In this document: piece by piece, positions 7,083-45,700 of the stretch
How the letters are laid out: each line of letters starts with the position of its first letter
How positions within the stretch are numbered: the first letter of the stretch is position 1
Virus record (IMG/VR): IMGVR_UViG_3300046665_000755
Coordinates: 1 to 52,824 of that record
DNA from: a virus
Direction: 5' to 3' (one strand)
DNA length: 52,824 bases
The notes under the pieces: model-generated
Seen by the model: the letters and a program-made list of their open reading frames with translations, nothing else
Told to the model about the DNA's origin: nothing
Database searches by the model: none
Position numbers and translations under genes: made by a program

Positions 7083-7378
7083 GGGATGCACCTTTCGGAG
7101 CAACCGCCCAGGAAGCGGTAAGGCTCGCCGCAGTTGATGACCTCGTCGCGGGTCATGTAATCGACATCGCAGTCACGGCCGCAGGAAGCGCATTCGCAGG
7201 TGAAGGTGCCGTCGCCATTGTCGTGGGCCCAGGATGGAAGCTCAGCTTCCTCCAGCTCTGGCTGATCGGCCAGTTGGCAGTTGGTGCCGCCGCAGTGCGG
7301 GCATTTAGTCCCTGTGAGACTTCCATACGGCCCAACCCAGTGGATGCCGATCTTGTTGCAATTGCCGCAGATCATCAT
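7079..7378 (-). CDS. Zinc-ribbon hypothetical protein
   Basis: A 99-residue protein with an N-terminal CGNC ... CPHCGGTNC set of cysteines and a second C-terminal set (CECASCGRDCDV ... CSERC), consistent with two zinc-binding ribbons. Two Met codons open the gene; the first overlaps the stop of the upstream gene. It is part of a run of five small genes whose ends overlap by four bases, so it is likely translated by coupling. Function unknown. Confidence 0.75.
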   Translation of the reverse strand: MMICGNCNKIGIHWVGPYGSLTGTKCPHCGGTNCQLADQPELEEAELPSWAHDNGDGTFTCECASCGRDCDVDYMTRDEVINCGEPYRFLGGCSERCIP

Positions 7379-7569
7379 GGCCGAACCCTCACCGCAATCC
7401 GGCCGCCCTTCATTGTCGGCGCCAGGCGCTGCGGCAGATCCCGCACCAGGTCTTCACGTTTTCGGCCGATCAGTTCATTGAAGGGAAGGCCAAAGCCCAA
7501 GATTGCGATGCGGCGCTCGATATCGTCGAGCTGCTCTTCAGCGAGCGACTTCACGATTGGCGTGGTCAT
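7375..7569 (-). CDS. Small hypothetical protein
   Basis: A 64-residue, helical, charged protein (LAEEQLDDIERRIAILGFGLPFNELIGRKREDLVRDL). Start and stop each overlap their neighbours by four bases, as expected for a coupled early phage operon. No recognisable domain. Confidence 0.65.
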   Translation of the reverse strand: MTTPIVKSLAEEQLDDIERRIAILGFGLPFNELIGRKREDLVRDLPQRLAPTMKGGRIAVRVRP

Positions 7570-7757
7570 GCAGCCTCCTTGCGCTGCCGGCTGATCTTCA
7601 GCAGCCAGGCGCTGTAGTGGTGGAACTCTTCGGCGTTGATGGCGCCGGAAGTGAAGTGGCGCACAATCAGGCCCTCAGTGAGCGACTCGGCCAGATCTGT
7701 CGTGTCCGGATGCTCAAGAGCGAGAAGGGCGGTGGTTATCGCGACGTGCGGGCTCAC
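7566..7757 (-). CDS. Small hypothetical protein, GTG start
   Basis: A 63-residue protein starting at GTG 7757, which overlaps the stop of the upstream gene (GTGA). It is predicted helical throughout, with an HHYSAWLLKISRQRK C-terminus. Coupled to genes on both sides. No recognisable domain. Confidence 0.62.
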   Translation of the reverse strand: MSPHVAITTALLALEHPDTTDLAESLTEGLIVRHFTSGAINAEEFHHYSAWLLKISRQRKEAA

Positions 7758-8191
7758 AGGTCTGCATCCACGTCGTCTTCGCGCTCTTCCCGTTCCGCTG
7801 CTACAGCGTCGGCGGCATACGGCCTCAGCAGCGCTACAGCGATCTTCTCGACCGCCTGAATGGGGCGCTGCTGGCCCAGCAGGTCGGCTGCGTGAGCCCT
7901 GGCATCGCTCTGGCTGCCGAGCATCGCCGACAGCAGCAGGCGGGCAAACGAATCACGCTGGTCAAGACCGTCAATCTGGCGCTGGTTCAGGTGGCCCTGC
8001 AGGACCGTGCAGAACCGGTCGAACGTCACCACTTGGGGCTGGCCGTATCGGCGCTTCCACTTGATATCGACGCCGCACACCAGGCGCTCCGCCGAATGCT
8101 CAAGCCAGTCCGTGACCTCGTTGCTCTCGCTGACCTCTGGAGGCAACTGAGCGTCGTAACGCTCCTGGCATATCTTCAATGCTGCGTTCAT
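7754..8191 (-). CDS. Hypothetical protein of the left operon
   Basis: A 145-residue protein from ATG 8191, which overlaps the stop of the preceding gene. A longer frame to 8299 would lie inside that gene and is unlikely. It is mainly helical, with a very acidic tail (EREEREDDVDADL). A segment VDIKWKRRYGQPQVVTFDRFCTVLQGHL lies in the middle. No recognised family. Confidence 0.68.
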   Translation of the reverse strand: MNAALKICQERYDAQLPPEVSESNEVTDWLEHSAERLVCGVDIKWKRRYGQPQVVTFDRFCTVLQGHLNQRQIDGLDQRDSFARLLLSAMLGSQSDARAHAADLLGQQRPIQAVEKIAVALLRPYAADAVAAEREEREDDVDADL

Positions 8192-37067: not shown

Positions 37068-37820
37068 ATGGCACTGATCACGGACATCCAGAAACTGGAG
37101 CCCGGCGCCGAAATTCGCCTGTTCGAAATTGACGGGACCGAATACGGCGCGGATTACCTGCGCTTCCACGGTCACGCCATCCCGCACACGCCGGCGGAAC
37201 TGCTGGCCTATGAGCACTCGGAAGAAGACCTGCCGGCCAAGTCGATTTGGTGGCAGGGCGAGGAATACGCTGCCTGGCCGGTCCAGATCGAGGGTATCGC
37301 TTCAGGCAGTGACGGCACGGCTACCAGACCGACGTTCGCAGCCGGCAATATCAATGGGCGTGTCACGGCGCTGTGCCTGGCCTTCGAGGACATGTTGAAG
37401 TTCAAGCTGACTGTTCGCGAGACCCTGGCTCAGTACCTGGACGCGGCTAACTTTCCCGAAGGCAACCCAACGGCCGATCCGACTCAGGAAGGGCTTGAGA
37501 TCTGGTACATCGACCAGAAAACCAGCGAGGACGGTGAAGCGGTGGTCTGGGAACTGTCGTCCCCGGGCGAGATCGATAACCACGGTCTGCCCGGGCGCCA
37601 GATGACTACGTTCTGTCACTGGGCCATGACCAGCGGTTACCGGGGGCCGGACTGCGGCTACACCGGCGCCGCCATGTTTGATGACGAGGACAACCCCACG
37701 GATGACCCGGCCAAGGATCAATGCAAGGGCTGCCTGTCGTCCTGCAAGTTGCGATTCGGCGAGAACAACGAGCTCAGTTTCGGGGGATTTCCGGCTGTGA
37801 ACCTCGTGTCCAGATCGTAG
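37068..37820 (+). CDS. Minor tail protein L-like
   Basis: A 250-residue protein. The N-terminal domain includes GAEIRLFEIDGTEYGADYLRFHG; the C-terminal part carries conserved cysteines in TTFCHWAMTSGYRGPDCGYTG and CKGCLSSCKLRFG, and ends ENNELSFGGFPAVNLVSRS. In lambda, gpL binds an iron-sulfur cluster through C-terminal cysteines, and the spacing here is compatible. The gene is intact despite the endonuclease-like gene downstream. Confidence 0.92.
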   Translation: MALITDIQKLEPGAEIRLFEIDGTEYGADYLRFHGHAIPHTPAELLAYEHSEEDLPAKSIWWQGEEYAAWPVQIEGIASGSDGTATRPTFAAGNINGRVTALCLAFEDMLKFKLTVRETLAQYLDAANFPEGNPTADPTQEGLEIWYIDQKTSEDGEAVVWELSSPGEIDNHGLPGRQMTTFCHWAMTSGYRGPDCGYTGAAMFDDEDNPTDDPAKDQCKGCLSSCKLRFGENNELSFGGFPAVNLVSRS

Positions 37821-37830
37821 TAAAATGATC

Positions 37831-37897
37831 GTGTGGCTAGGGCATGCAACCCGAAAAGTCGGCACCTAACCGACCTGCCACTCCTTTTCAGTTAGGT
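37831..37897 (+). ncRNA. Candidate structured RNA leader with pseudoknot
   Basis: The spacer between L and the endonuclease-like gene folds by eye into a three-way junction: P1 GTGGC (37833-37837) with GCCAC (37877-37881); P2 GGG (37840-37842) with CCC (37850-37852), seven-base loop; P3 GTCGG (37858-37862) with CCGAC (37870-37874), seven-base loop. The P3 loop ACCTAA (37864-37869) can pair with TTAGGT (37892-37897) as a pseudoknot. The start codon region follows about 20 bases later. No known RNA class recognised. Confidence 0.4.
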
Positions 37898-37918
37898 CTC
37901 ACGCTTTAGGGGTGTGAT

Positions 37919-38701
37919 TTGAAGATGAAATACCCAAAAGATTTGGTGGGCTTGCAGTTTGGCAGGCTCACGGTGATGAGCGAGGCGCCAAACGATAGAC
38001 CCTATAGGGTCAGTCTTTGGAACTGCCAGTGCGTATGCGGTAATTCCCGAGTCGTCCAAAGATCTTCGCTCGTATGTGGCGTGCAAGTGTCTTGCGGCTG
38101 CTTTATGAGAATGCGAGTAAAAGAAACCCACACCACCCACGGGCTCCACAGGCATTCTGCCTACGGCACATGGAAGGCGATGATCGATCGCTGCTACAAC
38201 CCCGAATCCAAAGATTTCAAAGATTATGGCGGTCGAGGCATTAAGGTCTGTGATGAGTGGCGAGACTTGGCTGGCTTTGTTGTAGGCATGGGGCCGAAGG
38301 AAAAAGGCCAGAGCATCGACCGGCTTGATGAGAATGGCGATTACGAGCCCGGGAACTGCCGATGGACCGACGCGCTCGGCCAGGGCGAGCACAAGCGGAA
38401 TAATGCCATTGTCACGCGCCTTGGAAGTCAGAGGCATATCGCTAGCGTTTGGCGCGAGGCCGGCATAAAAGAATCAACGTTCTACAACCGCCTCAATGCC
38501 GGAATGACTCCGGATGAAGCTGCCTCTACGCCCGTGCGCAAACATAATGCGACGCTGCTGATCGACGGCGAAGAGAGGACGGTCGTAGAGTGGGCGAAAA
38601 TAGCTGGAGTGAGCCAGGCGACCATGCGCAATAGAGTGAAGGCTGGAATCGTCGGACGGGCGCTGCTTAGGCCTCCCCAATCCGGGAAAATGTTTGCTTA
38701 A
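37919..38701 (+). CDS. Homing-endonuclease-like protein inserted in the tail operon
   Basis: A 260-residue protein. The N-terminal GLQFGRLTVMSEAP ... WNCQCVCGNSRVVQRSSLVCGVQVSCGC is a Cys-rich module seen in phage endonuclease-like proteins; YGTWKAMIDRCYNPESKDFKDYGGRGIKVCDEW and DRLDENGDYEPGNCRW form the HNH-like/AP2-associated region. The C-terminal third has HTH-like units (WAKIAGVSQATMRNRVKAGI). It separates L from K, which are adjacent in lambda. Start: TTG 37919 has AGGGG at six bases; ATG 37925 is the alternative. Probably a mobile, free-standing gene. Confidence 0.78.
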   Translation: MKMKYPKDLVGLQFGRLTVMSEAPNDRPYRVSLWNCQCVCGNSRVVQRSSLVCGVQVSCGCFMRMRVKETHTTHGLHRHSAYGTWKAMIDRCYNPESKDFKDYGGRGIKVCDEWRDLAGFVVGMGPKEKGQSIDRLDENGDYEPGNCRWTDALGQGEHKRNNAIVTRLGSQRHIASVWREAGIKESTFYNRLNAGMTPDEAASTPVRKHNATLLIDGEERTVVEWAKIAGVSQATMRNRVKAGIVGRALLRPPQSGKMFA

Positions 38702-38705
38702 CCAG

Positions 38706-38727
38706 GGGCGCTACGGCGCCCTTTTTA
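38706..38727 (+). terminator. Rho-independent terminator
   Basis: GGGCGC (38706-38711), TACG, GCGCCC (38716-38721), T5. It follows the endonuclease-like gene inside the late operon, so K and downstream genes need antitermination or a local promoter. Confidence 0.88.
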
Positions 38728-38740
38728 GTGGGCGCGAATA

Positions 38741-39502
38741 ATGCGAAAACACATAGTTACCGCAATCCAGGCGCACGCGGCGGCGGAATATCCCCGCGAG
38801 TGCTGCGGCCTGCTCCTGGCCGTTGGCCGGGCGCAGAAGTACTTTCCGTGCCGGAACATCGCCACTGAGCCGAACGAAGAGTTTCGACTTGATCCTGAAG
38901 ACTACGCTGCGGCGGAAGATCTGGGCGAGGTGATCGGCATTGTCCACTCGCACCCGAACGCAACCAGCAGGCCGTCACCGCATGACTTGGCCATGTGCGA
39001 GGCTACGGCCTTGCCCTGGCACATCCTGTCGTGGCCAGAGGGTGACTTGCGGACGATCACACCAACCGGTAGCACGCCGCTGCTCAAGCGCCCGTTTGTA
39101 CACGGTGCCTGGGACTGCTGGCAGGTCTGCGCGGATTGGTACCAGCGCGAATGGGGGATTGAATTCGAAGCCTTCCAGCGCGTCGATGGCTGGTGGGAGA
39201 GGGCGGAGAACGCCAGCCTGTACGAGCAGCACTACGAGGCCGCCGGCTTTGTTCGCGTCGACCGACCGCAGCGCGGCGACCTGATCGTCATGCATGTGGG
39301 CCGGACGGTTCACCCGAACCACGCTGGGATTTACCTGGGCACTGATACTGCGCTACCCGACGAAGAGTCAGGCACTTTCGGCCCTGGGCCGTTCCTGCTG
39401 CATCACCTATACGGCAGGCCTTCCGAAATCATAGTTTTTGGCGGCCCGTGGCATGACAGAACGCGCCTGATTCTCAGGCATAAAAATGCAAAACAACCAT
39501 GA
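38741..39502 (+). CDS. Tail protein K-like: JAMM isopeptidase + NlpC/P60 domain
   Basis: A 253-residue two-domain protein. N-terminal Mov34/JAMM metallopeptidase: Glu20, His69-Ser70-His71-Pro, Ser79 and Asp82 (IVHSHPNATSRPSPHD). C-terminal NlpC/P60 domain: catalytic Cys126 in HGAWDCWQVC and His in VHPNHAGIYLG. Lambda K has the same layout; it is thought to act at the tail tip, the NlpC part possibly cutting peptidoglycan during entry. No strong ribosome-binding site is visible. Confidence 0.94.
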   Translation: MRKHIVTAIQAHAAAEYPRECCGLLLAVGRAQKYFPCRNIATEPNEEFRLDPEDYAAAEDLGEVIGIVHSHPNATSRPSPHDLAMCEATALPWHILSWPEGDLRTITPTGSTPLLKRPFVHGAWDCWQVCADWYQREWGIEFEAFQRVDGWWERAENASLYEQHYEAAGFVRVDRPQRGDLIVMHVGRTVHPNHAGIYLGTDTALPDEESGTFGPGPFLLHHLYGRPSEIIVFGGPWHDRTRLILRHKNAKQP

Positions 39503-40481: not shown

Positions 40482-41042
40482 TTAAGGCATCAAGACCGAG
40501 TCAACAACGTGGATCACACCGTTGGACTGCATTACGTCTGCGATGCTGATGCCAGCCTTGCCGCCTTTGGCATCTACCACCCACAGCTTGCCTTCATGCA
40601 GCTTGATATTCAGCGATTCACCTTGGACTGTTTTCAACACCACGGTGCCGCCGTTCTTTTTGGCATCTGCCATCAGTTGCGCCGATGTGTGAGTGCCAGG
40701 CACGACGTGGTAGGTCAGAATTTTAGTCAGATCGGCTTTGTGTTCAGGCTTGACCAGTGTATCGACGGTCCCTGCTGGCAGCTTGGCAAAGGCTTCGTTC
40801 GTTGGGGCGAATACAGTGAAAGGGCCTTTGCTGTTAAGCGTATCGACCAATCCGGCAGCCTTGACTGCAGCTACCAGCGTCGTGTGGTCCTTCGAATTGA
40901 CCGCGTTCTCGACAATGGTTTTGCTTGGGTACATGGCTGCACCTCCGACCATCACTGTATCGGCGGCAAAGGTGAGCGTGGCAGTGACGGAGAGAATCGC
41001 GAAGCAGGCTGCAGCAGCAAATTTTTTGTAAAAAGCGTGCAT
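40482..41042 (-). CDS. Exported fasciclin (FAS1) domain protein
   Basis: A 186-residue protein. A signal peptide (about 1-26, ending TLTFA) is followed by one full FAS1 domain: TIVENAVNSKDHTTLVAAVKAAGLVDTLNSKGPFTVFAPTNEAFAKLP (H1 region), YHVVPGTHTS, and the closing NGVIHVVDSVLMP (H2). FAS1 domains mediate adhesion; bacterial single-domain forms are periplasmic or secreted. GGAGA lies before ATG 41042. It reads against the late operon, so it is probably expressed in the lysogen. A rare guest for a tail module. Confidence 0.9.
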   Translation of the reverse strand: MHAFYKKFAAAACFAILSVTATLTFAADTVMVGGAAMYPSKTIVENAVNSKDHTTLVAAVKAAGLVDTLNSKGPFTVFAPTNEAFAKLPAGTVDTLVKPEHKADLTKILTYHVVPGTHTSAQLMADAKKNGGTVVLKTVQGESLNIKLHEGKLWVVDAKGGKAGISIADVMQSNGVIHVVDSVLMP

Positions 41043-42761: not shown

Positions 42762-45700
42762 ATGGGCGCAGCACTCAAGATTGATATCCACGGCGCCAAG
42801 GGCGGCGAAGACAAACCAAAAACGCCAACCGAAGCCCCGGACAGTCTGCGCTCGGTCGCTATCGCCAAGATGCTCATCGCTATCGGTGAGGGTGAGTTCG
42901 AAGGCACGCCTACGGCGCGCGACATTTATCTCGACAACACCCCGCTGCAAGACCCACAAGGCAACATGAACTTCCCGAACGTAAAGTGGGAGTGGCGCAC
43001 CGGGGCGGTGGATCAGACCTATATCCAGGGGATCCCGTCGGTAGAGAACGAAACCACCATCAGCACCGAACTGCGTAGTGGTACTCCGTGGGTTCGTGCG
43101 ATCAACAACATCCAGCTTTCGGCTGTGCGGGTTCGCTTCGCCTGGCCAGCGCTCCAGTCTGTGGATGCCGGCGGCAACACCAACGGGTACCGGATCGAGT
43201 ACAAGGTTGAACTGGCAACCGACGGCGGCGCTTACCAGCAGGTGCTGAGCGAAGCTGTCGACGGCAAGACCACCAGCGTGTACGAGCGCACCCGCCGCAT
43301 CGATTTGCCGAAGGCTACTTCTGGCTGGCTGATGCGCATCACGCGCCTGACGATCAACCAGAACAACAACAAAATCTCCGACACGATGCAGATCGCCGGC
43401 TTCACGGAGGTGATTGACGCGAAAATTCCCTACCGCAATACGGCTCTGCTCTACATCGAGTTTTCAGCCGAACAATTCCGCAGCATCCCAGCAGTTACCG
43501 TCGCCTGCAAGGCGCGTAAATGGCAGGTCCCAAGCAACTACGATCCAATTTCGCGCACATACAGTGGTATCTGGGATGGGACGTTGAAGGAGGCTTACAC
43601 CAACAACCCCACCTGGGCTACTTACGGCATTACCACCAACGACCGCTTTGGCCTTGGCCGCCGCATCAAGCCGTGGATGGTCGACAAGTGGGAGCTTTAT
43701 CGCATCTCGCAGTACTGCGACCAGTTGGTGCCGGACGGGAAGGGTGGCCAAGAGCCGCGCTTCCTCTGCAACCTGAATCTGCAGAGCAAGGCCGATGCTT
43801 GGTCGCTTCTGCGCGATATCTCGGCGATCTACCGGGGCATGACTTACTGGGCTCAGGGCCAGGTGTTCACCCTGTCGGATATGCCGCGCGCTACCGACTT
43901 CGACTTCGCCTACACCCGGGCGAACGTCATTGATGGCAAGTTCACCTATTCCAGCGCATCGGAGCGCACCCGCTATTCCCGGGCATTGGTCAGCTACGAC
44001 AACCCGCTGAACAACTACGACACCGACGTCACGGCCGTGACCGACCAAAAGCTGCAGCGGCGCTACGGCGATAACCCGCTGGAGATCAGCGCCATCGGCT
44101 GCACGCGTGAGTCGGAGGCGCAGCGCCGCGGCAAGTGGGCATTGCTCACCAACTCCAAGGACAGGGCTGTTACCTTCAAGGTAGGCCTCGACGGGCGTAT
44201 CCCGCTTCCTGGCTACGTAATCCCGATCGCTGACGAACTGCTCGCTGGCCGACCTGTGGGCGGACGTATCTCGTCGGTGAACGGCAAGGTCATCACCCTG
44301 GACCGCGACACCCAGGCCAAACCCGGCGACCGGCTGATCCTCAACTTGCCTGACGGCAAGTGCGAGGGGCGCACCGTGCAACTGGTCAGAGGCCGCCAGG
44401 TCACGGTCACCACGGCGTACTCCGTGGCGCCTGAGCGGGAGCTGGTGTGGGCGCTCGACGCTGACGACCTGGCCATCCCGCTGTACCGGGTGACCAGCGT
44501 TTCCCGGCCAGAGCCTGGCGTGTTCGAAATCTCGGCTGTGCAGTACGACCCGAGCAAGTTTGCGCACATTGACACCGGCGCTCGGCTGGAAGAGCGGCCG
44601 ATCAGCGTTATCCCGATTACCGTAGTTCCAGCACCGGCCAGCGTCACGCTGACGTCGAGCTACGCCGTAAACCAGGGCATCGCTATCAGCACCATGAACA
44701 TCTCGTGGCCCGCGGTGAGCGGTGCGGTCGCCTACGACGTGGAGTGGCGCAAGGACAGCGGCAACTGGATCAAGGTGCAGCGGACAGGTTCGACCAGTGT
44801 TGACGTCACCGGCATCTACTCGGGCGCCTATTTGGCCCGGGTCCGCTCGGTGAGCGCCTTCGAGATATCGTCGATCTGGAAAAGCTCCAACCTGACCAAC
44901 CTGAAAGGTAAGGTCGGCCTGCCGCCGGCAGTGTCGTTCCTGACCACCACCAGCGAACTGTTCGGCATCAGCATCAAGTTGGGCTTCCCACCAGGCGCCG
45001 AGGATACCCAGCGCACTGAGCTGTGGTATGGCCCTACAAACAATCTTGGAGCCGCTACCAAACTGGCCGACCTTGCGTATCCGCAGGCCGACTACCGCAT
45101 GCAATCGCTGTTGGCGGGTGCTCGGTTCTTCTTCTGGGCGCGCCTGGTGGACCGGACGGGAAACATCGGGCCGTTCTATCCGGTGGTGAACGGTGTGATT
45201 GGGCAGGCCAGTTCGCAGGCCGGCCCTATCCTGGACTTGATTGCCGGCCAGATTGGTAAAACCGAACTGGCTCAGGAGTTGGTCAAGGAGATTGAACTGA
45301 TCTCCGGCGACGGCCCAGGGTCTGTGAACGATCGCTTAGAGCAGGCCAAGCAGGAACTGGAAGACCTGATCGATCAGATCACGGACGCCCTGGTCTACGA
45401 TCCGACCAAAACCTATGCCGCCGGCGACGTAGTGCGGCAGGGCCAGCACCTGTACCAAGCCATCGCGCCGGTACCGAAAAACACTACGCCTCCCAATGCC
45501 CAGTACTGGTTCGATATCGGCACCATTGCCGAGACAACCCAGGCCATGGCGTTGCAGATCCAGCAGAACAAGGCGTCCATCGACACCGTGGACGGCAAGG
45601 TAACGGCACAGGCATCTGCACTGCAATCGCTCCAGGCGAGCTGGAGGGAGGACAGCGGGGAGGGCGACCTGGCGGACGCCCTGAAAGGTTGGGATGCCAC

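Follow-up and report, generated by a model that had tools for sequence, protein, structure and literature searches.

An int-alpA RNA as a candidate translational leader of an HNH endonuclease-like gene cassette in a phage tail operon

Described systems and the inserted cassette

Translational riboswitches combine a conserved unpaired core, an alternative pairing of the anti-Shine–Dalgarno type, and an expression platform no more than 50 nt away from the start codon. In the repZ system of IncI plasmids, a pseudoknot acts as activator, and its action requires that a leader peptide be translated. Phage morons are cargo genes that are transcribed autonomously and are not known to have a structured leader RNA in common. 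The int-alpA RNA, reportedly described by Weinberg et al. in NAR in 2017, is held in Rfam as RF02996, a family of undescribed function that is filed as an sRNA. Homing endonuclease genes of the T4 type (I-TevI, I-TevII, I-TevIII, segB, and Aeh1 mobE) are restrained by hairpins that sequester the Shine–Dalgarno (SD) sequence (PMC2988022, PMC3014915).

The locus analyzed here lies in a 52.8-kb virus record (IMGVR_UViG_3300046665_000755); we refer to this whole stretch as the window, and positions are numbered along it. As in the T4-type systems, a gene of the homing endonuclease type is located in a late operon, and mRNA structure at the SD may limit its translation. The T4 elements, however, are simple hairpins, each linked to the early and late promoters of one gene, whereas the RNA described here has a conserved three-way junction, two alternative long-range pairings, and many unrelated genes downstream. 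The late promoter that overlaps the hairpin in T4-type systems has no counterpart here: a promoter-like hexamer precedes the first stem of the RNA (P1), so that the entire structure would be present in every transcript, short or long. Because T4 homing endonucleases are held back by SD-sequestering hairpins, translational restraint of the gene found here is plausible by analogy.

The conserved unpaired core, the anti-SD-type alternative pairing, and the short distance to the start codon are likewise seen in this RNA; the genes downstream, in contrast, share no pathway and suggest no common metabolite. With IncI repZ, the RNA would share a pseudoknot switch with an alternative pairing near the start codon. 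The layout of promoter-like hexamer, gene, and terminator between two late genes recalls a moron, and the cassette of Pseudomonas phage D3 is laid out likewise, with an int-alpA leader before orf23-orf24 and an annotated terminator, between tail genes (L184:2501-3195). With int-alpA itself, the RNA has the conserved junction, the stems P1 to P3, and the 3′ pseudoknot strand in common, and the gene context from which that family takes its name recurs in two relatives (L198 and L199), in which an integrase, the RNA, a variable gene, and an AlpA-like gene follow one another, the gene names being readings of the translations rather than results of a family search. Rfam differs in listing an sRNA gene with a model that stops at the first pseudoknot strand, whereas here the RNA stands before an HNH gene within the tail operon of a phage.

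Tail gene L (37068-37820; Pfam Phage_tail_L) and tail gene K (38741-39502; JAB and NlpC/P60) are separated by 920 bp in the window. This interval (37821-38740, plus strand) contains the −10-like hexamer, the RNA, the HNH gene, and a terminator. Only 2 nt lie between L and K in four relatives (PseuP_222, 5400, CF53a, and Medea1), and since all four empty sites miss the RNA, the HNH gene, and the terminator together, the RNA belongs to the inserted unit, as had been suggested when it was first proposed that it could be part of the mobile unit. Nine near-identical inserts are found in Pseudomonas phages and prophages. A different insert occupies the same junction in a further viral genome (L033, IMGVR_UViG_2684622590_000002, 7216-8000), where an int-alpA RNA of its own and a strong terminator accompany another HNH gene (MPKLIDLTGERFGRL...). 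Directly after K, phiAH14a (L008:7809-8521) and Pseudomonas sp. ANT_H4 (L011:5590) carry one more int-alpA RNA, ∼1.6 kb downstream and paired with a further HNH gene; the window is without this second unit. Judged by the empty sites and by the alternative cassette at the same junction, RNA, gene, and terminator behave as one cargo cassette.

The −10-like hexamer TAAAAT (37821-37826, plus strand) lies immediately 3′ of the L stop codon and just 5′ of the RNA, with no good −35 element; in the nearest relatives, it reads TAGAAT. A hexamer resembling TATAAT is present 24 to 14 nt before the conserved CTAG of the RNA in 24 of 65 relatives, compared with 3.1 expected from shuffles and 1 to 3 in neighboring windows. 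A strict sigma-70 scan found neither a promoter before the RNA of the window nor a −35 box. At the 3′ end, an intrinsic terminator-like hairpin (GGGCGC-TACG-GCGCCC followed by TTTTT; 38706-38726, plus strand; z = −2.0) is kept in all 10 aligned inserts. The terminator and the relatives that are empty at the junction are features that a moron would have; of a promoter of its own, the cassette shows the −10-like hexamer only. An intron-borne homing endonuclease of group I or II was considered and rejected: int-alpA is the sole Rfam family in the whole window, and the insert lies between genes, not within one.

The gene of the cassette (37919-38701, plus strand) encodes 260 amino acids from a probable TTG start and matches HNH endonuclease families of PHROGs at E values of 2.7e-59 and 2.6e-57; no Pfam family was matched at E ≤ 0.001, and searches of NCBIfam and the PDB gave nothing useful. 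Translation most likely starts at TTG 37919, because three relatives (L002, L010, and L133) lose ATG 37925 yet keep the TTG. In the phiAH14a entry (KU708004.1, L008), an antisense hypothetical CDS (43851-44018) and a truncated CDS (44139-44660) are annotated over the full 260-amino-acid, TTG-start HNH gene.

Fold and family membership of the RNA

A scan of the whole window against Rfam gave one match above threshold, to RF02996 int-alpA, at 37830-37897 on the plus strand (cmscan; 41.9 bits against a gathering cutoff of 35.8, E 2.4e-5 for the window). The match spans the full model, positions 1 to 71, is not truncated, and comprises the three-way junction together with copy 1 of the pseudoknot strand. 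Taken with the HNH assignment of the downstream gene, it bears out the original prediction of a structured RNA with a pseudoknot before a homing-endonuclease-like gene; the prediction that this RNA was new did not hold, and by sequence and fold the spacer RNA is a member of the known int-alpA family.

P1 pairs 37833-37837 with 37877-37881, P2 forms a hairpin at 37840-37852 (37840-37842 with 37850-37852), and P3 forms a hairpin at 37858-37874 (37858-37862 with 37870-37874) closed by the loop CACCTAA at 37863-37869, all on the plus strand. The junction strands CTAG (37837-37840), CGAAAAG (37852-37858), and CCTG (37874-37877) are invariant or nearly so among relatives, an invariance that is partly due to the search pattern, of which CTAG and CGAAAAG were part. 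The minimum free energy (MFE) fold of 37822-37925 computed with RNAfold contains P1, P2, and P3 to the base, as they had been drawn by eye. Its stability (−27.0 kcal/mol; z = 0.08, with 99 of 200 shuffles at least as stable) was rejected as proof of structure, and because stability alone is indistinguishable from chance, we accept the structure on comparative evidence. In the MFE fold of the subfamily to which the window belongs, TTAGGTC of copy 1 is instead paired with GATTTGAA (37891-37923), covering the TTG start, a third alternative that is not family-wide. A ribozyme was also rejected, no other Rfam family being present in the window and the core strands misfitting, by eye, the hammerhead order.

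Relatives were gathered with a DNA pattern and with RF02996 searches, which yielded more than 100 loci beyond the near-identical inserts. Elements over the cutoff were found in 16 of 200 genomes of the genus Pseudomonas, 42 of 399 of the family, and 51 of 399 of the phylum (∼13%), and in 0 of 14 control genomes; further loci lie in viral contigs and in named phages, among them D3, D6E, Tyrion, GF-2, Ab105-2phi, and several phages of Vibrio. In the deep-sea thermophilic phage D6E (L185:2001-2799), whose host is a thermophilic, Gram-positive Geobacillus, an int-alpA-like RNA precedes an HNH endonuclease gene between two baseplate genes. Because it is found in D6E, the int-alpA family is not limited to Proteobacteria.

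Among 49 diverse relatives, the covariation score of P1 to P3 was 0.689, compared with 0.138 ± 0.017 after shuffling, and sliding the pairing partners destroyed the covariation. Over the three stems, 94% of cells are paired and 10 of 12 pairs have changes on both sides, and P1 has compensatory changes in five of five pairs with 85.7% of cells paired; the paired percentages of P1 and P3 are inflated because pairing in these stems served partly as a selection criterion for relatives. P2, which was not such a criterion, is paired in 100% of cells, with compensatory changes in two of its three pairs. Compensatory changes in homologues, named beforehand as the check on the fold, are therefore present in P1 and P3, and the complementarity of the pseudoknot covaries as well.

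The P2 loop (37843-37849 in the window) is frequently palindromic in relatives (UGCA, AGCU, GGCC, UCGA, and UUAA). A palindrome is found in 63% of 38 distinct P2s, compared with 38 ± 7% of letter shuffles in what was a post hoc test, and is absent from one large subgroup. A kissing dimer through palindromic P2 loops is possible, and these counts are suggestive of it.

Two complementary partners of the P3 loop

The P3 loop sequence ACCTAA (37864-37869) is perfectly complementary to copy 1, TTAGGT (37892-37897, plus strand), which is the pseudoknot that had been predicted. As described, that fold was incomplete and is extended here by a further hairpin and a second copy. P4 (37899-37917, plus strand) pairs TCACGC (37899-37904) with GTGTGA (37912-37917), and its loop (37905-37911) contains copy 2, TTAGG (37906-37910, plus strand), which is complementary to CCTAA (37865-37869) of the P3 loop and overlaps the SD, GGGG (37909-37912, plus strand). 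The SD of the window thus lies in the loop and at the 3′ edge of P4 and is not fully paired. In relatives, copy 1 is located 11 to 21 nt past the junction, and copy 2 lies at or just before the SD, in the P4 loop.

Complementarity was measured as the longest Watson–Crick match of the P3 loop within fixed windows in 70 relatives with distinct loops. The loop matches copy 1 over 5.69 nt, compared with 3.10 ± 0.16 for permuted loops and 3.20 for letter-shuffled ones, and copy 2 over 4.59 nt, compared with 3.03 ± 0.15 and 2.94 ± 0.16, respectively. Neither observed value was reached in 1000 permutations, although such counts should not be read as exact probabilities, since the relatives share ancestry and are not phylogenetically independent. 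Within the ORF, a control region had no excess complementarity to the loop (2.24 versus 2.43 ± 0.18). When the comparison was confined to 12 mutually divergent loops, the values were 6.0 versus 3.0 ± 0.5 for copy 1 and 4.5 versus 2.6 ± 0.4 for copy 2. The rule used to choose start codons took the SD into account, but such a rule by itself cannot create loop-specific complementarity.

For validation, we used loci found mostly by the Rfam model that had played no part in noticing the copy 2 effect; 43 of 74 could be parsed, and the statistics leave out the other 31. In 21 elements with new loops, complementarity was 5.14 versus 3.27 ± 0.30 for copy 1 and 4.00 versus 3.02 ± 0.27 for copy 2, an excess that is smaller for copy 2, where the highest value among 1000 permutations is likewise 4.0. 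The P4 stem scored 4.68 versus 3.45 ± 0.14 after permutation in the first set and 4.33 versus 3.54 ± 0.19 in the validation set. It is thus shown statistically, on sequence comparison, that both loop complementarities have been kept through sequence change across the family. Copy 2, P4, the SD, and the fixed position before an ORF are outside the Rfam model and new here, and part of them may be drawn in the original int-alpA description. A literature search found no paper that reads int-alpA as a leader RNA or riboswitch.

The two competing duplexes are close in energy, with medians of −7.45 kcal/mol for the loop with copy 1 and −6.75 kcal/mol with copy 2, copy 1 being the stronger partner in 56% of relatives; in the window, the values are −5.5 kcal/mol for copy 1 and −6.2 kcal/mol for the copy 2 region. 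D3 is an example without a clear copy 2. The same parts could form a fixed leader that enhances translation or stabilizes the mRNA, with the pseudoknot and P4 coexisting, copy 2 a mere structural duplicate, and no switching; the P4 loop would place the SD within reach of the ribosome, and varied cassettes could simply need reliable expression. A sequence that does not pair, however, would not need to track the variable P3 loop beyond composition and permuted loops, as copy 2 does, and we regard a fixed leader as unlikely. A leader acting on transcription, either by antitermination like the put RNAs of HK022 or by attenuation, would let polymerase read through the cassette, and the location at the start of the cassette, right behind the promoter-like sequence, would suit such a role. 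Yet no terminator-like U-run follows P4, and the conserved complementarity aims at the SD rather than at a terminator, which makes control at this level a distant prospect.

Cargo genes and a proposed translational switch

An SD-preceded ORF of at least 50 amino acids follows on the same strand, 34 to 50 nt past the junction, in 83% of 102 elements; the corresponding figures are 4.4% for positions drawn at random from these loci and 5.5% after a 300-nt displacement. Annotated CDS starts agree in D3, D6E, and GF-2 and in Vibrio, Rhizobium, Aeromonas, and Pasteurella phages. This spacing bears on whether the RNA might be a trans-acting small RNA, transcribed separately and merely situated upstream of genes. 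Such a role would accord with the Rfam type 'Gene; sRNA', with the −10-like hexamer at the 5′ end of the RNA, and with the listing of int-alpA, on sequence alone, among the sRNAs of STEC (PMC12370729). A cis element, in contrast, would be expected to keep a fixed distance to a same-strand, SD-preceded start and to have a P3 loop that covaries with the SD region next to it, and both are observed. Its place in the genome and its complementarity to the SD therefore favor a cis role, and an independent sRNA appears very improbable.

Among 63 downstream proteins, DUF1376/primosomal proteins are the commonest (13 to 16), and the others include HNH endonucleases and endonuclease VII, integrase, Dam, tail tube, aminotransferase, and glycosyltransferase. 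Given this diversity, a function specific to endonucleases was rejected. The original prediction held that the RNA could time translation of the endonuclease; an effect on translation is indeed the best-supported function, but because most relatives precede other genes, the RNA is not endonuclease-specific.

We consider it likely that int-alpA RNA is a gene-independent 5′ leader that switches translation in cis and is carried by accessory-gene cassettes. Transcription would probably begin at the weak promoter of the cassette itself, at the 5′ foot of P1. The three-way junction of P1 to P3, with its invariant core, would then present the P3 loop, an arrangement supported by covariation, and this loop would have copy 1 and copy 2 as mutually exclusive partners, between which it may alternate in the cell. 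Pairing with copy 2 would cover the SD and block translation; pairing with copy 1 would leave the SD free and permit it. The balance might be set by a factor, ligand, or protein that recognizes the invariant junction, or by the order of folding, and the leader would act in the same way whatever gene lies behind it. The RNA can be called riboswitch-like because an invariant CTAG/CGAAAAG/CCTG core is joined to an exclusive pairing of one loop that involves the SD. Against a switching leader stand the fold of the window, which is no stabler than shuffles and in whose MFE form copy 1 is taken up by the region of the start codon, and the promoter evidence, which consists of a −10-like hexamer in 24 of 65 relatives only and lacks a −35 box.

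A broader and more tentative proposal, to which we give somewhat less than even credence, is that int-alpA serves phages and integrative elements widely as a translational switch independent of the gene it controls, in which the junction senses a factor or ligand reporting on infection or cell state and the loop is released from a decoy copy and passed on to the ribosome-binding site that precedes the cargo gene. A second pairing directed at the SD, together with a fixed leader position, makes a testable cis-regulator of a family so far filed among sRNAs. It also suggests a single plug-in leader by which phages and islands express unrelated cargo, such as nucleases, replication initiators, integrases, and methylases. 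Since ∼13% of the sampled phylum genomes carry the element, any trigger common to them would amount to a general signal addressed to the cargo of mobile elements. With D3, the leader is available in a laboratory phage. Elsewhere in the tail operon of the window, an opposite-strand ORF (40482-41042, minus strand) reads by eye as a secreted fasciclin-domain protein and is probably another cargo gene.
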